A DNA stretch of 64,000 bases from contig DRHF01000109.1 in the NCBI GenBank assembly GCA_011049715.1, positions 1-64,000 on the forward strand, read 5' to 3'. Shown here one piece after another: positions 5,944 through 19,327 of this stretch (positions within the stretch are counted from its first letter, which is position 1; every line of letters starts with the position of its first letter). The notes below the pieces were generated by a model. The model was given only the letters and a program-made list of their open reading frames with translations. It did no database searches and was not told the origin of the DNA. Made by a program: the position numbers and the translations under genes. Origin of the DNA: Desulfobacterales bacterium. GTDB lineage: Bacteria > Desulfobacterota > Desulfobacteria > Desulfobacterales > UBA2156.

Positions 5944-7242
5944 ATGATAACCCGGATCGAGGGCGGAAGGGTGATCGATCCCGGACATATTGATGATGTA
6001 AAGGATATCATAATCGAAGAGGGGAAGATTATTGAATTAAAGGATTCCCTGCACAAGAAAACCCGGGGTTCAGACGAAGAATCCAAAATCATCGATGCTT
6101 CAGGAAAAATTGTAACCCCCGGCCTGATCGATATGCATGTCCATCTACGGGAGCCGGGGCATGAATATAAGGAAACGATTCGATCAGGCTGTTTGGCAGC
6201 CGCTGCGGGTGGTTTTACCTCGATTTGCGCCATGCCAAACACCGATCCTGTAAACGACAATCGACAGACCACAGAATATATCCTGAAGAAAGCAACATTG
6301 AACGGCCCCGGGGTTCATGTTTTTCCAATTGCCGCCATAACCAAAGGGCTTCAAGGCAAATCCCTTTGTGAATACGGAGAATTGAAAGATGCCGGTGCGA
6401 TTGCCTTTTCAGATGACGGCCGGCCGGTGATGGACAGCCAGGTTATGCGCCGGGCAATGGAAAATGCCAATGAGTTCAACAGTATCATCATTTCTCACTC
6501 TGAGGATCTTGGTCTTTCACAAAATGGGGTGATGAATGAAGGGACACTCGCCGCACAGATGGGCCTGGCCGGAATACCAAATGCGGCGGAAAGCATCATG
6601 GTGATGCGGGACATCGCACTTTGCGAATTGACCCGAACGCCGATTCATATTGCCCATGTCAGCACCCGGGAATCTGTTTATGCCATAAGAGATGCCAAAA
6701 CCAGGGGAATACCTGTTACCGCTGAAACCGCCCCTCACTATCTCACCCTTTGTGAGGATTCGGTGAAGGATTATAATACAAACGCAAAGATGAATCCGCC
6801 ACTTCGTTCAATTCAGGACCGGGAAGCGGTTCTGACAGGGCTTGCCGATGGCACCATCGATGCCATTGCCTCGGACCATGCGCCCCATTCTTCAACTGAA
6901 AAAGAGGTTGAGTTCGACCTGGCGGCCAACGGGATTATCGGGCTTGAAACCTCCCTTTCCCTGGGATTGAAGCTGGTAGAAAATAATATAATAACCATCA
7001 TCGACCTTGTTGAAAAAATGTCGACCAACCCGGCACACATCCTCGGCCTTGAAAGCGGTCTTCAAATCGGTAGCTCCGCTGATATCACCATTATTGATCC
7101 TGACAGACCCTATGAAGTCGATTCAAATCGTTTTCAGTCTCTCAGCCGCAACACCCCCTTTGACGGGTGGAACCTGAAAGGAACGGCGGTTTTAACTATG
7201 GTTGGTGGGAAGGTGGTTTTTGAAGAAACCGGAGCCATATAA
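5944..7242 (+). CDS. pyrC: Dihydroorotase
   Basis: DMHVHLREPGHEYKETI, AIASDHAPHS motifs; 432 aa. Confidence 0.95.
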   Translation: MITRIEGGRVIDPGHIDDVKDIIIEEGKIIELKDSLHKKTRGSDEESKIIDASGKIVTPGLIDMHVHLREPGHEYKETIRSGCLAAAAGGFTSICAMPNTDPVNDNRQTTEYILKKATLNGPGVHVFPIAAITKGLQGKSLCEYGELKDAGAIAFSDDGRPVMDSQVMRRAMENANEFNSIIISHSEDLGLSQNGVMNEGTLAAQMGLAGIPNAAESIMVMRDIALCELTRTPIHIAHVSTRESVYAIRDAKTRGIPVTAETAPHYLTLCEDSVKDYNTNAKMNPPLRSIQDREAVLTGLADGTIDAIASDHAPHSSTEKEVEFDLAANGIIGLETSLSLGLKLVENNIITIIDLVEKMSTNPAHILGLESGLQIGSSADITIIDPDRPYEVDSNRFQSLSRNTPFDGWNLKGTAVLTMVGGKVVFEETGAI

Positions 7243-7351
7243 AATCTCTCGTCCCAGCACGATCTCTAAGACCTACGGGATAAACAAAGGCGCAAAGACG
7301 CAAATATAAGGGAACAAGCCGGCGATAATTACTTAGAAATACATCTAAAAA

Positions 7352-8746
7352 ATGACAAAAAAGAAACCCCATATTCTTGTTGTGGACGATGAGCTGAGCA
7401 TGAGGGAGCTGCTCGAAATCATGTTCGGTCGGGAAGGATATAAGGTATCATGCGCGGAAAACGGATGCATGGCCATCTCAATGCTGGATAAAAGCGATTT
7501 TGATCTGTTGCTCTGTGATATCCGGCTCGGCGATATTTCCGGACTGGATGTGTTAAGAGCTGCAAAAAAGAAGGATCCAAATATAGTTGTTATCCTGATA
7601 TCTGCCTATGCGACAGCCGAGACAGCGGTTGAAGCAATGAATGCGGGCGCCTACGATTACGTGCCAAAGCCCTTCGACAAAGAGGAACTCAAACAGACCA
7701 TTGCCAATGCCCTGGATTTAAAAACCATTGCCCGAGAAAAAGAGCTCCTTGATAAAGAGCTTAAAAAAACCTTCCATTTTGGTAGAATCGTGGGAAACAG
7801 CCCCGAGATGATGTATATTTACGATATGATCAGACAGGTTGCCAAAACGAAAACCAATATTCTGATCACCGGAGAAAGCGGTACCGGCAAGGAATTGATC
7901 GCCCGTGCTATCCATGAACAGAGTGACCGGTCTGACAAGCCCTTTGTGGTAATCAACTGCGGCGGCATCCCCGAGACATTACTGGAGAGCGAGCTTTTTG
8001 GGCACAAAAAAGGCGCATTCACCGGGGCAACCCAGGATAAAAAGGGACTTTTTGTGGTGGCTGATAAAGGGACTGTCTTTTTGGACGAAATCGGGGATCT
8101 CAGCATCCCCATCCAGGTAAAACTGCTGCGGGCCGTCCAGGAAAAGGTGTTTAAAGCGGTCGGAAGCAATGAGGATGTTTCGGTTGATATCCGGATCATT
8201 TCCGCAACCAACAAAAAACTTGAAGACGAAGTGATCGCCAACAATTTTAGAGAGGATCTTTTTTATCGTCTGAATGTAATCGAATTAAAGGTTCCGCCCC
8301 TCAGGGAAAGAAAAAGCGATCTCCGCCTTCTTGCCCAGCATTTTTTAGAAAAATACTCCAGTGAAATGGGAAAAGAGATCTCAAAAATATCGTCGTACGC
8401 CATCGATTTGCTCAATAAATATGATTTTCCCGGCAATGTTCGTGAACTGGAAAATCTGCTGGAGCGGAGTGTGACTATTTCCACCACTAACATCCTTCTC
8501 CCTGATTCCCTTGCCCTATCGGTTCATAAACGAAGATGGATCGAAGGGATGCAGGATAGACGATTTGATCTTGGTGAAGTGGCAAAAGGGGTTTCTGTTG
8601 ACGCCATTTTAGAAGAAATAGAAAGGGCTTATTTGGAAAAAGCTCTAGAATTAGCGGGCGGCAAAAAGGAAACCGCCGCCGATCTGCTCGGTGTCAGGTT
8701 GCGATCTTTACGGTACCGGCTTCAAAAGCTGGGGATTAAGATGTAG
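7352..8746 (+). CDS. pilR: PilR/NtrC-type sigma54-dependent response regulator
   Basis: Receiver domain, GESGTGKELIARAIH (Walker A), GAFTGA, C-terminal Fis-type HTH; immediately upstream of pilA. Confidence 0.9.
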   Translation: MTKKKPHILVVDDELSMRELLEIMFGREGYKVSCAENGCMAISMLDKSDFDLLLCDIRLGDISGLDVLRAAKKKDPNIVVILISAYATAETAVEAMNAGAYDYVPKPFDKEELKQTIANALDLKTIAREKELLDKELKKTFHFGRIVGNSPEMMYIYDMIRQVAKTKTNILITGESGTGKELIARAIHEQSDRSDKPFVVINCGGIPETLLESELFGHKKGAFTGATQDKKGLFVVADKGTVFLDEIGDLSIPIQVKLLRAVQEKVFKAVGSNEDVSVDIRIISATNKKLEDEVIANNFREDLFYRLNVIELKVPPLRERKSDLRLLAQHFLEKYSSEMGKEISKISSYAIDLLNKYDFPGNVRELENLLERSVTISTTNILLPDSLALSVHKRRWIEGMQDRRFDLGEVAKGVSVDAILEEIERAYLEKALELAGGKKETAADLLGVRLRSLRYRLQKLGIKM

Positions 8747-8918
8747 AGTGATATAATCGAGACGAGTGAGTGAAAAACATACCAATTTTTGTCACAAAAA
8801 AACAATATTTGTAAAATAATGAGCAGCTGATAGATAGAAAAAAATGCCCTCCGTTTCAAATAAAACTATTTTTCAATAAATACAGTATGTTAAAAATTAT
8901 TTTTTAAATGATTAAAAC

Positions 8919-8934
8919 TGGTGTATTTCTTGTA
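8919..8934 (+). promoter_or_regulatory. Degenerate sigma54 -24/-12 promoter of the first pilA
   Basis: TGGTGTATTTCTTGTA: GG-N10-GT, aligned to the intact element of the second copy. Confidence 0.5.
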
Positions 8935-9001
8935 AACAGCAGTACCGTATGACAAGCAAGAAAACTTTAAATTCCATAAAGACCATAAAGGAAGGCATAC
9001 A

Positions 9002-9451
9002 ATGTTTCAGAAACTGAAAAAGAACAATCAAAAAGGTTTCACATTGATCGAGCTGATGATCGTCATCGCCATCATCGGCATTCTGGCCGCGATCGCCATC
9101 CCCAACTTCATCGCGTATCGTAATAAGAGTTTTTGCAGCCGGGCTGAATCGGATGCCAATGGCGTTGCCGCGGCGGTTGCAGATTATTTTGCCATACCAT
9201 CACATGTCAATACACCAACTATTGCCCAATTAAACAACAATGCGGGCTACACGTTTTCCGGTAGAGGCGGTTCACAAAACTCGGGAACCGTCGATGGGGC
9301 AGATCCCACCGTTAACATAACCGTTTCGGTAACCGATGGGAGTGGTCGGTGTCCGACTGGGTACCAGACTGCCCAAGTCACAGATGCAGGCAGCTCAGAT
9401 GGGTGGATAGTTGGTGCAACTTACATCTATTACAAATATGTTACACGCTGA
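9002..9451 (+). CDS. pilA: Type IV pilin, copy 1
   Basis: [25 protein letters not shown] prepilin signature. Confidence 0.96.
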
Positions 9452-9486
9452 TGCATGTGCAGGATAAGCATCAGCTGAAAGGTAGT

Positions 9487-9600
9487 AGCTGAAAAAAACC
9501 CTCCATTTTGTTAAGATCGTGGGAAACAGCAACAGATCTGCTCAATATCAGCCTGAGATCCCTACGGTATCAGCTTCAAAAGCTGGGAATTAAAACGTAA
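9487..9600 (+). pseudogene. Decayed, internally deleted pilR remnant between the two pilA genes
   Basis: 9487-9530 resembles pilR 7758-7802; 9533-9600 resembles the pilR 3' end (about 8680-8746) including the stop position. Confidence 0.8.
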
Positions 9601-9773
9601 AATGATACAATCGAGACAAACAGGCGAAAACATACCAATTTTTGTCACAAAAAAACAATATTTGTAAAATAGCGAGCAGTCGATAAATAGAAAAAAAATA
9701 ACCTCTATTTCGTATAGAAATATTTATCAATAAATACAGTATGTTAAAAATTAATATTTAAAATGGTTAAATT

Positions 9774-9789
9774 TGGCTTAGTTTTTGCA
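9774..9789 (+). promoter_or_regulatory. Sigma54 -24/-12 promoter of the second pilA
   Basis: TGGCTTAGTTTTTGCA: GG-N10-GC, 61 nt upstream of the start codon; adjacent PilR-type activator. Confidence 0.75.
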
Positions 9790-9849
9790 ACATAGCTTGA
9801 CGAACAAGAAAACTTTAAATCCCATAAAAACCATAAAGGAGGGTGAATC

Positions 9850-10302
9850 ATGTTACAGAAACTAAGGAAAAAGAGCAATCAAAAAGGTTTTACATTGATC
9901 GAGCTGATGATCGTCATCGCCATCATCGGCATCCTGGCCGCCATCGCGATCCCCAACTTCATCGCCTATCGAAACAAATCTTTTTGCTCCAGGGCTGAAT
10001 CGGATGCCAATGGTGTTGCCGCGTCGGTTGCAGATTATTTTGCCATACCAGCACATGTCAATACACCAACTGTTGCCGAATTAAACAACAATAATAGCTA
10101 CACGTATTCCGGTAGAGGCACTTCAATAAACACAGGAACCGTAGATGGCGGTGATCCCAGCCTTAACATAACCATTACGGTCACCGATGGGAGTGGTCGA
10201 TGTCCGACTGAATACCAAATTGCCCAAATCTCAACTGGAATTGGTGTTGATGGGTGGATATCTGGTGCAACTTACATCTATTACAAATATATTTCACCCT
10301 GA
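9850..10302 (+). CDS. pilA: Type IV pilin, copy 2
   Basis: [25 protein letters not shown]; close paralog of 9002-9451. Confidence 0.96.
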   Translation: MLQKLRKKSNQKGFTLIELMIVIAIIGILAAIAIPNFIAYRNKSFCSRAESDANGVAASVADYFAIPAHVNTPTVAELNNNNSYTYSGRGTSINTGTVDGGDPSLNITITVTDGSGRCPTEYQIAQISTGIGVDGWISGATYIYYKYISP

Positions 10303-10343
10303 TGCATGTGCAGGATAAGCATCAGCTAAAAGGCAGTAAATGT

Positions 10344-10375
10344 AAAGTGGGGGAATCTATCCCCCACTTTTTTTT
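10344..10375 (+). terminator. Rho-independent terminator after the second pilA
   Basis: AAAGTGGGGGA-atcta-TCCCCCACTTT followed by a T-run. Confidence 0.9.
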
Positions 10376-10532: not shown

Positions 10533-12656
10533 ATGGGCGACGAGACTTTGGGTAAATATAGTTCACCTGAAAACAGCAAGAAAATTTTTATTGCCTTTTT
10601 TTGTTTAGCATTTCTGATCCTTCTCGTCTATTCCAACACGTTTCATGCTTCCTGGCAATTTGATGATAAACCCAACATTGTCAACAATGGCTATTTGCAC
10701 CTCAAGGACCTGAATCCTGAATCCCTGTTTAAAACCTTTTTTACCAATCCGGCAGATCCCTGGAAAACAGGCAATAAACTATATCGACCCATTCCATGTC
10801 TGACATTTGCCCTTAACTGGTATTTTGGTGAGAACAATGTAATTGGTTACCACATTGTCAACCTGGTTATCCATTCTCTGACTGGGTTTCTGCTTTTTCT
10901 TACTATTTTGAACTTATTTCAATCTCCGAATCTTAAGCATAAATTTGCTGAAAACGCATTTTTCATCGCCCTTTTGACGGCAACGCTGTGGGCAATTCAC
11001 CCGATTCAAACCCAGGCGGTGACCTACATTGTTCAACGAATGACCTCGATGGCCACCCTGTTTTATATTCTCAGCATGTTTTTTTATGTAAAGTGCAGGT
11101 TGAGCAGTTCCTCTCTGCATCGGATCTTATTTCTTTTGGGTAGCGGGCTGGCTTTTTTATTTGCACTTGGATCCAAAGAAAACACCGCTACGCTCCCTGT
11201 CGCGTTGCTTCTGGTTGAGGTGATATGTTTTCAGGATTTAACCTCACAGCGAACTAAAAGGGTATTTCTTTGGGGGTCCATTGCCGGAGGCATGCTTCTG
11301 ATTGTCTTGTTTGTTTGGCTCTTCATCCCTGATAACTCGTTTTCATTTATAAAAGGTTATAATCACCGGCCCTTTAGTCTCACCGAACGGCTTTTAACGG
11401 AACCGAGAATTGTGTTTTTCTACTTGAGTCTCATTTTCTATCCAATGCCAAATCGGCTCTCTATTGAACATGATATAACTCTTTCCACTTCACTGTTTCA
11501 GCCACTGACAACACTCCCGGCCATTTTACTCACCTTGGTTATCATCGGGATCGGATTTTCACAGATCAGAAAACGGCCACTTATTGCTTTGGCGATTCTG
11601 TTCTTTTATCTCAACCATATCATTGAATCCACTGTCATTCCCTTGGAACTCATTTTCGAACATCGCAATTATCTTCCGTCTCTTTTTCTTTTTTTGCCCG
11701 TTGCTGCAGGATTCTCGAAGTTGCTTACCTACTACCAAAAGAGAAATAAAGCCCTAAGGGCCGTTTTGGCCGGTTTCCTTGCTTTGTCAATCATCGCAAT
11801 TGGATCGGGTACCTATATTAGAAACAGGGCTTGGGCCACAGAAATAAGCCTATGGAAAGATGCGATGGTTAAAGCACCCAAAAGCGCAAGGCCCTTGACC
11901 AATCTGGCATGGCAAATGGCCTATGTTTCTGATGCCAGCAAAAGCCAATATGACGAGGCACTTTTACTTTATGAAAAGGCACTTTTACTTCAAAAATCAA
12001 GGACACGTTTCAATCCGATCATCATGGGTAATATGGCTGGGATATATTTCAGGAAAGGTGAACATCCAAAAGCAATTGAATTGCTGGAAAAAGCCCTGGC
12101 TGTGTCTCCGGATTATGCAAAAGGCCGCTACGACTTGATCCAGATCCTGATAACGCTCGGGAGATGGAACAGCGCATCAGAGCATGCGGATTATCTCCTT
12201 ACAAAACATGCTGATCATGAAGGATACCTGAATCAAAAAGGATTAATATTATTGCATCAAAAAAGGTACGAAGAAGCGATCGAACATTTGCAAAAGTCAC
12301 TGTCAATTGCACCCCGATTCAAAACGACGTTAATGGGATTGGGTGTAGCCTTAAGTTTAAACGGAAATTACGGCAAGGCTGAAATCGTCTTGAGGCGCGC
12401 ACATCAACTACCACCTGGGAGTATGACAGCACTTTTTGGATTGATAGAAAATAGTTTAAGGGCTGGAGATATCCCCCGAGCCATGGATTATACAGACAAA
12501 CTGATCAATACTTACAATATTACCGCAGTAAAGCATCAATTGAAGAATCTTTCAAACGATCATTTTGTGCCGCCCTTATCACCTGAATTAATCTCTCAGG
12601 TAATAGCACGCCTTCTGGCAGAAAAGTCGAAGGAATTCTCGGAAATTCAGAATTAA
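10533..12656 (+). CDS. Multi-TM protein with C-terminal TPRs (TMTC/GT-C-like), paralog 1
   Basis: N-terminal TM segments with FDDKPNIVNN loop motif; C-terminal TPR repeats (YEKALLL..., AIELLEKALAVSPDYAKG). Confidence 0.75.
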   Translation: MGDETLGKYSSPENSKKIFIAFFCLAFLILLVYSNTFHASWQFDDKPNIVNNGYLHLKDLNPESLFKTFFTNPADPWKTGNKLYRPIPCLTFALNWYFGENNVIGYHIVNLVIHSLTGFLLFLTILNLFQSPNLKHKFAENAFFIALLTATLWAIHPIQTQAVTYIVQRMTSMATLFYILSMFFYVKCRLSSSSLHRILFLLGSGLAFLFALGSKENTATLPVALLLVEVICFQDLTSQRTKRVFLWGSIAGGMLLIVLFVWLFIPDNSFSFIKGYNHRPFSLTERLLTEPRIVFFYLSLIFYPMPNRLSIEHDITLSTSLFQPLTTLPAILLTLVIIGIGFSQIRKRPLIALAILFFYLNHIIESTVIPLELIFEHRNYLPSLFLFLPVAAGFSKLLTYYQKRNKALRAVLAGFLALSIIAIGSGTYIRNRAWATEISLWKDAMVKAPKSARPLTNLAWQMAYVSDASKSQYDEALLLYEKALLLQKSRTRFNPIIMGNMAGIYFRKGEHPKAIELLEKALAVSPDYAKGRYDLIQILITLGRWNSASEHADYLLTKHADHEGYLNQKGLILLHQKRYEEAIEHLQKSLSIAPRFKTTLMGLGVALSLNGNYGKAEIVLRRAHQLPPGSMTALFGLIENSLRAGDIPRAMDYTDKLINTYNITAVKHQLKNLSNDHFVPPLSPELISQVIARLLAEKSKEFSEIQN

Positions 12657-12675
12657 TATAGGAAGCACCTCTGAA

Positions 12676-14502
12676 ATGATCAGAAAAAATGCGATTATAA
12701 ATCGATTGTGGGATAGGAAATCGATGATTTGCCTTTTCTTGGTTTTAATGACCTTTGCTATTTTTTACCGGTTGTCCGGTTATGATTTCGTGAACTTTGA
12801 TGATGATTTATATGTAACGGCAAATTCTCGTGTCCAAAAAGGTCTGAACATGGAGAACATCGTTTGGGCCTTCAGCACCACCGATATTGCGAACTGGCAC
12901 CCCTTAACCTGGCTTTCTCACATGCTGGATGTTCAACTCTGGGGAATGAATTCGGGCCGGCATCACCTGGTAAATGTATTTTTTCATATCACTAATGCGT
13001 TATTGCTGTTTCTAACTCTCAACCGAATGACAGGCGCACCATGGTGCAGTGGTTTTGTGGCGGTTTTGTTTGCCCTGCATCCGATAAATGTGGAATCGGT
13101 TGCCTGGGTGGCGGAACGTAAAAATGTCCTGAGCACGTTTTTCTGGATGATGACCATGTGGAGTTACTGCCAATATGCAGAAAAGCCCGTTCGCGTGAAA
13201 TATTTAGCGGTAATTCTCTTTTTTATGCTCGGCCTGATGACCAAGCCGATGCTGGTGACATTGCCTTTTGTCCTGCTCCTTTTGGATTATTGGCCTCTTA
13301 AAAGATTCCGGTTCGCGGCTGCTTCTGTTTCAGGCCAATCACATTTTAAAGCCGACATCAAGTCACACTGTATAGGTAATTCGCACCAATCGGATGTATC
13401 ATCTTCCGATTCTTCAGCTTTTCAAAATCGATCGTTTTTAAGTCTGATTCGGGAAAAAATTCCCCTCTTTGTTTTATCTGCTTTTTCCTGTGGCGTTACT
13501 TATCTATCTCAGGATGCTTCGGGAGCTGTTCGTTCTTTGGAGGTGATACCGCTGACATCACGGATTGCAAACGCTCTGGTTTCTTATGTGGGTTATGTTG
13601 GCAAAATGATCTATCCTTTAAAATTGGCGGTTTTCTACCCATATCCAGCAATTATTCCCGGGTGGCGGATTGCCGGAGCAGGTTCCATCCTCATAACAAT
13701 GTGTTACCTGTCTTGGAAGATTCGTGTGAAACACCCGTATGTTCTTATCGGCTGGTTCTGGTACCTCGGCACATTGATTCCTGTCATCGGTCTGGTACAA
13801 GTCGGTTCCCAGGCCATGGCTGACCGCCATGCATATATTCCTTTGATCGGTCTTTTTATTGCAGGTGTTTGGAGTGTTTCAGAATTTTTGAAAGTTTATC
13901 TTTCTCGCTATAAACTGATTCCAATTGTCGCAACTCTATTGATAGGTATTCTTTTCATGATAACCTGGAAACAGATAGGTTATTGGAAAAACAGCGCGAC
14001 ACTTTTTCAACACACGATAGATGTTACCACTGATAATTATTTGGCTCGAAATAATCTTGGAAATGCAATGGTCCATTTAGGAAAAAATGATGAGGCATAC
14101 CAACATTATGCTGAAGCCCTAAGGATCAAGCCACACGATGCGAATGCGCACTATAACATGGGAATACTGCTGACCACCAAGGGTAAGCTGGATGAGGCCA
14201 TTGGTCATTATAAGGCTGCCATAAGATCCAATCCATACTTAAAAAAAGCGTATTATAACCTGGGAACGATACTGCAACAAAAAGGCAGTAATGCTGAAGC
14301 CATCATTAATTTTTTATATGCTCTACGGTTGGATTCGCGTTTTGCAGAAGCCCACAACAACCTGGGCGTCTTGCTGGCACAACAGGGAAAGATCAATGAA
14401 GCGGCCGCACATTTTTTAATGGCTGTCAGTCTGAAGACTAACTACATCGCAGCAATAAAAAACCTGCAAAAAGCGCGGAGCGACATGAGGCGTATCGATT
14501 AA
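12676..14502 (+). CDS. Multi-TM protein with C-terminal TPRs (TMTC/GT-C-like), paralog 2
   Basis: YDFVNFDDDLYVT, WHPLTWLSHMLDVQLWGM, HPINVESVAWVAERKNVLSTFF; TPR tail. Confidence 0.78.
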   Translation: MIRKNAIINRLWDRKSMICLFLVLMTFAIFYRLSGYDFVNFDDDLYVTANSRVQKGLNMENIVWAFSTTDIANWHPLTWLSHMLDVQLWGMNSGRHHLVNVFFHITNALLLFLTLNRMTGAPWCSGFVAVLFALHPINVESVAWVAERKNVLSTFFWMMTMWSYCQYAEKPVRVKYLAVILFFMLGLMTKPMLVTLPFVLLLLDYWPLKRFRFAAASVSGQSHFKADIKSHCIGNSHQSDVSSSDSSAFQNRSFLSLIREKIPLFVLSAFSCGVTYLSQDASGAVRSLEVIPLTSRIANALVSYVGYVGKMIYPLKLAVFYPYPAIIPGWRIAGAGSILITMCYLSWKIRVKHPYVLIGWFWYLGTLIPVIGLVQVGSQAMADRHAYIPLIGLFIAGVWSVSEFLKVYLSRYKLIPIVATLLIGILFMITWKQIGYWKNSATLFQHTIDVTTDNYLARNNLGNAMVHLGKNDEAYQHYAEALRIKPHDANAHYNMGILLTTKGKLDEAIGHYKAAIRSNPYLKKAYYNLGTILQQKGSNAEAIINFLYALRLDSRFAEAHNNLGVLLAQQGKINEAAAHFLMAVSLKTNYIAAIKNLQKARSDMRRID

Positions 14503-14525
14503 GTTCATCAAAAGGTTTTTGTATA

Positions 14526-16316
14526 ATGGTTTCAAAACAAAATAGGAAATATTGCCACAGGGAAACTGGATCCAAAATACGGCCGACGGTCGTTGTCGGT
14601 CTTTTTCTCATACTGGCAACACTAACTGTTTATTGGCAGGTCAGAAATCATGAATTTATCGGCTATGACGATGATGGATATGTTACTGAAAATCCGCGGG
14701 TACAAAACGGATTGACCTTAAAAAATATCATTTGGGCATTCGAATCTACACATAAAAGCAATTGGCACCCTACCACCTGGTTATCCCACATGCTGGATGT
14801 TCAGCTTTTCGGAATGAATCCGGGAGGTCACCATATGACCAGTATGCTCTTTCACATATTAAACAGTTTATTGTTGTTTGCTGTGTTTAATAGGATGACA
14901 GGTAAATTATGGCAGAGTGGATTTGTTGCGGCCATGTTTGCTCTCCATCCCCTTCATGTGGAATCCGTGGCATGGGTGGCGGAGCGCAAAGATGTCCTGA
15001 GCACCTTTTTCGGGATGCTGACCCTTTGGAGTTATGCCCGTTACGCTGAACATCCGGATACAAATCGATTTTTGCCGGTTATAGGGTTCTTTGTTCTGAG
15101 CCTTATGGCTAAACCGATGTTGGTAACATTACCGTTTGTTCTGCTCCTTTTGGATTATTGGCCTTTGAGACGAGCTAAAATCAGATCCTCCGATGATGAT
15201 GCCGGTAACCTTCAACCGAGGTCGTTAGTGTTTTTCCTAATCTGGGAAAAAATTCCTCTTTTTTTTCTTTCTTTGGCATCGTGTTTCGCTACATTTTTTG
15301 TCCAGAGAAAAGGAGGAGCCATAGGCACATTTGACACACATCCATTTTTTGTTAGAGTTTCCAACGCCTTGGTTTCATATACAAAATACATCCAAAAGAT
15401 GATTTGGCCTGACAATCTGGCCGTTCTGTATCCCCATCCCGCCTCGATATACTGGTGGCAGGTTATAGGTGCTTTTCTACTACTCAGTGGGGTCACTTTT
15501 TTAGCCATCAGATATCTGAAAAAACTTCCATGGCTTGCGGTCGGATGGTTTTGGTATCTGGGTACGCTTGTCCCGGTAATAGGTCTGGTCCAGGTTGGTA
15601 CACAGGCAATGGCTGACCGGTACACTTATGTGCCGTTGATCGGTCTGTTTATCATTTTGGCCTGGGGTGTCCCTCAACTTGTGGACAGGTGGCGACACAA
15701 AACCAAATTGGTTTTTACGATATTAACGACCCTGTTCCCCATCCTTATAGCAACCTCGTGGATACAGGCGAGGTACTGGCAAAACAGTATTACGCTTTTC
15801 AGGCATACTCTGGATGTAACATCCGCAAACTTCGTTATTCAAAATAATTTGGGATTCGAGCTGGCATTTCAAAGCCGAACTGATGATGCGATTAAACATT
15901 ATAAGGAAGCATTAAGCATAAATCCCGATTTCGAAATGGCTTACATTAATTTAGGGAAGGCCCTGCTTTCCCAGGGTAAGTTGGATGAAAGTGTCAATTA
16001 TTATCAGAATGTCTTAGCAATTAAGCCGAATTACGCAGGCGTTCATCACAATCTGGGTATCATGCTGCTTCGCAGGGGAGAGATAGATAAAGCGATCTTT
16101 CATTTCCGAGAGGCACTCCGTATAAGGTATGACTATGCTGAAGTATATAACAGTCTTGGAGCCGCCATGGCAGCTAGAGGTGAAATCAAGAAAGCCATTA
16201 TGTACTTTAAAGAGGCACTACGAATAAGGCCGGATCTCCTTACAGCTGAACAAAACCTTAATAAGTTGGAGAATAAAATGGCCTTAAAGTCCAAGGTAAC
16301 TCTTGATTTTAAATAG
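14526..16316 (+). CDS. Multi-TM protein with C-terminal TPRs (TMTC/GT-C-like), paralog 3
   Basis: YDDDGYVTENPRVQNGLT, WHPTTWLSHMLDVQLFGM, HPLHVESVAWVAERKDVLSTFF; TPR tail. Confidence 0.78.
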   Translation: MVSKQNRKYCHRETGSKIRPTVVVGLFLILATLTVYWQVRNHEFIGYDDDGYVTENPRVQNGLTLKNIIWAFESTHKSNWHPTTWLSHMLDVQLFGMNPGGHHMTSMLFHILNSLLLFAVFNRMTGKLWQSGFVAAMFALHPLHVESVAWVAERKDVLSTFFGMLTLWSYARYAEHPDTNRFLPVIGFFVLSLMAKPMLVTLPFVLLLLDYWPLRRAKIRSSDDDAGNLQPRSLVFFLIWEKIPLFFLSLASCFATFFVQRKGGAIGTFDTHPFFVRVSNALVSYTKYIQKMIWPDNLAVLYPHPASIYWWQVIGAFLLLSGVTFLAIRYLKKLPWLAVGWFWYLGTLVPVIGLVQVGTQAMADRYTYVPLIGLFIILAWGVPQLVDRWRHKTKLVFTILTTLFPILIATSWIQARYWQNSITLFRHTLDVTSANFVIQNNLGFELAFQSRTDDAIKHYKEALSINPDFEMAYINLGKALLSQGKLDESVNYYQNVLAIKPNYAGVHHNLGIMLLRRGEIDKAIFHFREALRIRYDYAEVYNSLGAAMAARGEIKKAIMYFKEALRIRPDLLTAEQNLNKLENKMALKSKVTLDFK

Positions 16317-18626: not shown

Positions 18627-18899
18627 ATGGAAAAAGTAAATGCGCTTCAAATCAGAAACAATCTGGGTCAAATATTGGACCGCCTGAATGAAAAAGGTGA
18701 GCCCATCCTAATCAGCAAAGCACACAAAATAAGAGCGGTATTGGTTACCCCCGAACAATTTGAAAAGCGATTTTTAGACTGGCAATCTCAAGATAAAAAG
18801 AAACGCCTGCTAAATGCAGTGAAAGAACTGAGGGAAAAAAGAGTGGGAAATTTGACGAGTCTTTCTGTTCTGCGTGAGTTGAGGGGTTATAAAAATTGA
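18627..18899 (+). CDS. Phd/YefM-type antitoxin
   Basis: MEKVNALQIRNNLGQILDRLNEKGEPILISKAHKIRAVLV; 4-bp overlap with the following PIN gene. Confidence 0.8.
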   Translation: MEKVNALQIRNNLGQILDRLNEKGEPILISKAHKIRAVLVTPEQFEKRFLDWQSQDKKKRLLNAVKELREKRVGNLTSLSVLRELRGYKN

Positions 18900-19327
18900 T
18901 CTGGGTTATAGACGCTTCCGTCGCTATTCGATGGTTCATTAAGGAAGAGGCACATCCCCATGCGGATGAAGTTTTGAAAGGGATTATAGACGATCCTGAA
19001 AGGTTTGCTGTACCGGAATTATTTGGATTCGAAGTCTTTTCTGTTTTGTGCCGTTTACATTCAAATGGACTCGATGCTTTTCAAAAAGGGGCCATTCCAA
19101 TTCTCCAATTGGGCATATTTCGGCAACCTATGACAAGCAACTTGGCAGGGTTGGCAAATAATTTCGTCCAATTGGGGTTAACAGGTTATGATGCGTGTTA
19201 TGCGGCGCTTTCAAAAGATTTAAACGGAACCTGGTTGACTTTTGACAAAAAGGCGCATCAGTTGATTCAAAAAGAAAAAGTATCGCACCTATTGGATGAT
19301 GAACTCCCAAATGGTTGGCCAGATTAA
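18896..19327 (+). CDS. PIN-domain toxin (VapC-like)
   Basis: VIDASVAIRWFIKEE, GLTGYDACYAALSKDLNGTWLTFDKKAHQ. Confidence 0.85.
   Translation: MIWVIDASVAIRWFIKEEAHPHADEVLKGIIDDPERFAVPELFGFEVFSVLCRLHSNGLDAFQKGAIPILQLGIFRQPMTSNLAGLANNFVQLGLTGYDACYAALSKDLNGTWLTFDKKAHQLIQKEKVSHLLDDELPNGWPD

Follow-up and report, generated by a model that had tools for sequence, protein, structure and literature searches.

How two type IV pilin genes came to stand side by side behind a single regulator gene, and what the short stretch between them once was, is the question raised by this locus. The window, i.e., the whole stretch of 64,000 nucleotides that was analysed, comes from one draft assembly, in 461 contigs, of a metagenome-like genome of the Desulfobacterales.

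The pilin locus and the pilR relic

The gene order on the + strand is pyrC, a pilR-like gene, pilA1, pilA2, and a gene for a TPR membrane protein. The product of the pilR-like gene has the domain order receiver, AAA+, Fis-type HTH, and the name pilR was assigned from the position beside pilA and the conserved context. A gene for an NtrC-type activator beside pilA is what is expected of a pilin gene under PilR/sigma-54 control. No pilS-like sensor kinase gene was seen adjoining pilR (7352-8746). The features of the locus are the following:

5944-7242, + strand: pyrC, directly upstream of pilR, as it also is in G002 and G003, which represent sister genera of the same family
7352-8746, + strand: pilR-like gene for a sigma-54-dependent response regulator, the intact source copy (Pfam Response_reg, Sigma54_activat, HTH_8)
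7758-7801, + strand: source of relic piece 1 (match to 9487-9530); the duplicated segment starts here at 7758, within pilR codon 136
7793-7798, + strand: GGAAAC, microhomology at the left edge of the 875-bp deletion, from position-by-position comparison
8668-8673, + strand: GGAAAC, right microhomology and start of the source of piece 2, from position-by-position comparison
8668-8745, + strand: source of relic piece 2, the pilR 3' end (match to 9522-9599)
8774-8820, + strand: conserved block upstream of pilA1, agreeing with that of pilA2 at 45/47 positions, with the presumed PilR site TACCA-N5-TGTCA (8780-8794)
8919-8933, + strand: decayed sigma-54 promoter of pilA1, TGGTGTATTTCTTGT, with GC changed to GT at -12 (score 13 of 20)
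9002-9451, + strand: pilA1, type IV prepilin of 149 aa (Pfam N_methyl, TIGR02532)
9452-9487, + strand: pilA1 3' UTR with a small hairpin, without a T-run terminator; right duplication end at 9487/10338
9487-9600, + strand: pilR relic (fossil) of 114 bp, matching two pilR pieces, with the old stop codon at 9600
9627-9673, + strand: conserved block upstream of pilA2, with the presumed PilR site at 9633-9647
9774-9788, + strand: sigma-54 promoter of pilA2, TGGCTTAGTTTTTGC (score 18 of 20)
9850-10302, + strand: pilA2, type IV prepilin of 150 aa (Pfam N_methyl), 80% identical to PilA1
10344-10375, + strand: intrinsic terminator after pilA2 (11-pair stem and T run), just outside the duplicated segment
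10533-12656, + strand: TPR membrane-protein gene (TPR families), right flank of the locus and the same neighbour in G002 and G003

Directly after the pilins, three large ORFs (707, 608, and 596 aa) follow in series at 10533-16316 and look like TPR-repeat membrane proteins that are related to one another; TPR families were matched for the first of them, which is also the neighbour of pilA in G002 and G003 and whose product might act on the pilin. Elsewhere in the window, at 18627-19327, two overlapping small ORFs of 90 and 143 aa by eye resemble a Phd/YefM-type antitoxin and a PIN-domain toxin and are candidates for these.

According to the original prediction, the spacer between the pilins holds two non-contiguous pieces of pilR in their original order, and this was borne out. 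The first piece (9487-9530) is identical to pilR 7758-7801 at 39/44 positions with a local score of 63, and the second (9522-9599) to the pilR 3' end at 61/78 positions with a score of 71. Chance similarity was ruled out by 1000 dinucleotide shuffles, which gave a mean of 18.5, an sd of 2.5, and a maximum of 30 for piece 1, and a mean of 18.9 and a maximum of 30 for piece 2; both scores are thus clearly better than those of shuffled sequence, the comparison on which the prediction was to be judged. The predicted coordinates were right to within a few bases, except that the 3' piece corresponds to 8668-8745 and not to about 8680-8746. The two pieces are adjacent in the relic, in pilR order, and overlap there over GGAAAC(A)GC (9522-9530), which is compatible with both parental sites.

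Extent and distribution of the duplicated segment

The similarity does not end with the relic and continues collinearly through the intergenic region, pilA, and the 3' UTR to position 10338, in agreement with the earlier claim that a copy of the promoter region and of pilA follows downstream. The promoter region 9603-9843 aligns with 8749-8995 at a score of 252 (shuffled maximum 39), and the 3' UTR 9441-9487 aligns with 10292-10338 at a score of 74 (shuffled maximum 26). The locus therefore contains one segment twice, collinear and in the same orientation, as is characteristic of a tandem duplication; the repeats between the two units fall in families D1-D7.

Both ends of the segment could be placed. 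The sequences that follow pilA1 and pilA2 match as far as 9487/10338, where the former passes into pilR at 7758 with a 1-bp overlap, and the duplicated segment runs from pilR codon 136 to 36 bp past the pilA stop, short of the terminator. The prediction that pilR through pilA was duplicated thus stands in outline, but the unit began inside pilR, at codon 136, with a 1-bp junction. Because the pilA1 3' UTR joins pilR at codon 136, the second pilR lacked a start codon and the receiver domain, and judging from this junction it was probably 5'-truncated from birth. Moreover, as the terminator is found only after pilA2, it is pilA2 that keeps the original right flank and pilA1 that keeps the original left flank. 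The deletion junction in the relic lies within 9522-9527, on a 6-bp exact repeat, and the deletion in the second pilR copy comprises 875 bp and shifts the frame. An internal deletion of the second pilR, as had been proposed, is the simplest account of two pieces that join on GGAAAC with 875 bp missing.

The whole-genome search gave no further copy of the unit, no dispersed repeat, and no second fossil, and the plasmid collection gave only short matches covering at most 9% of the query, which, where named, lay under pilin genes. In G002 and G003, the order is pyrC-pilR-pilA-TPR gene with a single pilA between the same flanks, which answers the earlier proposal to compare related strains for one or two pilA genes. 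The other genome of the same genus (G001) has no match to this pilR or pilA region. PilA1 and PilA2 are identical at 119/149 positions (80%), while orthologues reach at most 72%, and in the protein tree they pair together with support of 84/91 as nearest sampled relatives of each other. From this pairing and the single pilA of the sister genera, it follows that the duplication is lineage-specific among the sampled genomes.

A survey covered 97 further distinct pilR loci, each followed by 1.2 kb of sequence or more. A pilin lies within 5 kb in 62 of them and two pilins in four, and a convincing pilR 3' remnant was found only in L061 (= G058). As in the window, a decayed second pilR 3' end lies there between pilR and pilA; unlike the window, it stems from an independent event, the scrap includes post-pilR sequence, and there is only one pilA. 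On contig 41 of G058 (7320-8432 and 8613-10203), the decayed 3' end, together with 36 bp of the following sequence, is located downstream of the intact pilR; the two copies flank an antitoxin-like/PIN-like gene pair, an ATPase gene comes next, and pilA is thereby displaced to a distance of 2.8 kb. At L149 (G191 contig 160, 4300-5618), an independent tandem pilA pair of about 87% DNA identity stands behind pilR, with no pilR remnant between the genes and with a strong sigma-54-like site for each copy. Two other downstream pilR matches were set aside: that in L192 is long and resembles a separate sigma-54 activator gene, and that in L058 has 21 nt.

Divergence and upstream sequences of the two units

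The two units differ by 17-24%. In the relic, the divergence is about 22%, which is the level of the flanks, whereas the 47-bp block upstream of each pilA diverges by only 4% (96% identity between the copies against about 78% in the flanks and the relic, P=0.003). The comparison of the units hence shows which sequence ahead of pilA was kept and which was not, and the conserved block pointed to an order-wide palindrome as a candidate PilR site. Among 64 sampled upstream regions of the order, the window's two counted and loci with a sigma-54 promoter score below 16.9 excluded, 34 have a perfect palindrome of YGACA partnered with TGTCR. Its spacing is nearly always 5 bases, it mostly stands 110-147 bp before the -24 element, and its score is reached by 0.1% of composition-preserving shuffles. 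Both window copies have TACCA-N5-TGTCA at the position of the order-wide TGACA-N5-TGTCA, which is presumably the PilR binding site of the order. The latter sequence is common to about 60 Desulfobacterales pilA loci, approximately 140 or 122 bp upstream of -24.

The downstream promoter elements of the two genes are not alike. The pilA2 promoter has the -24/-12 form GG-N10-GC, and that of pilA1 departs from it at -12; the scores in nearly all relatives are 17-20. Judged by these elements, pilA2 is probably the main PilR-driven pilin gene, and pilA1, whose -12 element is damaged, is probably weakly expressed. For the PilA1/PilA2 pair, dS is 0.25 and dN is 0.13; the first 45 codons have a dN/dS of about 0.1, and those from codon 70 onward one of about 0.8-1.2. 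A gene-conversion tract in pilA was rejected, as the longest stretch without synonymous change (codons 56-81) is not significant (P=0.13).

Between pilR and the relic, 19 of the 39 compared codons differ, 10 of them synonymously only and 9 in the amino acid, where about 12 amino-acid changes are expected under pure neutrality (P about 0.1). In simulation, a pseudogene from birth and a mildly constrained copy fit alike and strong constraint is rejected; a period of some constraint on the second pilR copy is therefore possible. Eight of the amino-acid differences could be polarised against about 80 relatives. At four, the relic has the family residue and the resident pilR is derived (F141, R145, V448, R449), and at the other four the relic is derived (G144V, A443T, G447N, R456Q); A443T and R456Q hit near-invariant residues. 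Since changes have occurred on both sides, the relic is no recent copy and the resident pilR has changed since the duplication. In this sense, the relic has frozen an earlier state of a portion of the regulator's DNA-binding domain.

Origin of the pilin pair and comparison with known systems

We hypothesize, and consider it very likely from the junctions and the alignments, that a local tandem duplication gave rise to a 5'-truncated pilR', that this copy was reduced to the relic by internal deletion, and that both pilins were kept. A segment of approximately 1.7 kb, from pilR codon 136 to just past pilA and short of the terminator, would have been duplicated in tandem to give pilR-pilA1-(5'-truncated pilR')-pilA2. 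A frameshifting deletion of 875 bp between two copies of GGAAAC would then have reduced the useless pilR' to the 114-bp relic, and both pilA copies would have persisted, with most of their divergence in the C-terminal halves. It would mean that the relic is a scar between two pilin genes, each with a PilR-type upstream site. As no relative with an intact or undeleted second pilR was found among the sampled genomes (one genome per species), we infer the order of duplication and then deletion and do not observe it.

Other origins would explain part of these data. It is unlikely, though conceivable, that a full pilR-pilA unit was duplicated, that both regulators were active for a while, and that the second pilR was later cut both at the 5' end and internally. 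With 10 of the 19 differing codons changed synonymously only, strong earlier constraint is possible for part of the history; however, nothing of the earlier part of pilR is left where the pilA1 3' UTR abuts codon 136, which would require two separate losses, and two such pilR copies were seen in no relative. Very unlikely, in our judgement, is the import of the second unit from a related strain or species, by which a diverged segment of the pilR 3' part and pilA would have been joined beside the resident copy. The 17-24% difference between the units would suit a foreign source, and so would the four family residues that the relic has and the resident pilR has not, but the latter are equally expected if the resident pilR changed after a local duplication. 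Furthermore, each of the two pilins has its nearest sampled relative in the other, and a better donor is absent among the sampled genomes.

On the other hand, the relic itself might have been retained as a functional element, such as an inter-pilin leader RNA or a small partial-HTH peptide, an idea to which we assign hardly any probability. pilA1 has no terminator, so its transcripts may read through the relic, and a short open stretch still reads ETATDLLNISLRSLRYQLQKLGIKT. However, this stretch contains no ATG start, and a functional RNA was ruled out by the lack of a stable fold (z=-0.3) and of an Rfam family match for the relic. The relic also diverges as the unconstrained flanks do and not as the 47-bp block does, and key HTH residues are mutated. 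Disabled by the out-of-frame deletion and devoid of a start codon, it is most likely functionless. A foreign second unit, a full second regulator, and a retained function are all less economical than local duplication and deletion. It is possible, if rather doubtful, that the two-pilin system is in transition: pilA1 with its decayed promoter would persist as a weak variant on which selection is relaxed or diversifying, sequence may be exchanged between it and pilA2, and the resident PilR would have changed near the recognition helix (I448V, S449R) after the duplication, with the relic keeping the earlier sequence.

PilR-regulated, sigma-54-dependent pilA genes are known from Pseudomonas, Myxococcus, and Geobacter (PMC6058289, PMC3333781). 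The window is like these in having an NtrC-type activator gene beside pilA, a -24/-12 promoter, and a presumed upstream activator site, and unlike them in having no pilS beside pilR; the presumed site is the palindrome TGACA-N5-TGTCA, while the PilR elements of Pseudomonas are TGT-N11-AGA and GTCT. Pilin paralogues with unequal and partly opposing roles are described for pilA1/pilA2 of Xylella fastidiosa, where a sigma-54 (RpoN) promoter is documented for pilA1, and the parts of these accounts consulted describe no pilR relic (PMC3224663, PMC9956873). The Xylella pilins are gammaproteobacterial and their functions were tested in Xylella, whereas the window pair is known from its sequence. Paired pilins also occur at the PilA1/PilA2 locus of Legionella pneumophila, a different lineage, for which the portion of the source consulted describes no duplication scar (PMC13170364). 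A literature search for pilR, pilA, pilin, and tandem duplication found no account of the present arrangement. The silent pilS-type cassettes of Neisseria are promoterless, 5'-truncated donors that recombine into one expressed gene, whereas both pilA genes of the window are complete, with a start codon and an upstream block.

Among the known tandem segmental duplications of bacteria are those with short-junction endpoints whose redundant part was then deleted between short repeats. The window resembles these in its collinear direct copy, in a duplication junction with little or no homology, and in the later short-repeat deletion. Duplications in which a passenger gene has decayed are a known type of event, of which this is a real, well-resolved, and ordinary case, and the understanding of no mechanism is altered by it. 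It offers a legible example of how a pilin pair originates, with both endpoints and the likely mechanism of the deletion. It is of the same kind as the known tandem duplications; its particular traits are that the gene carried along encodes the regulator of the pilin itself and that the scar can still be read.
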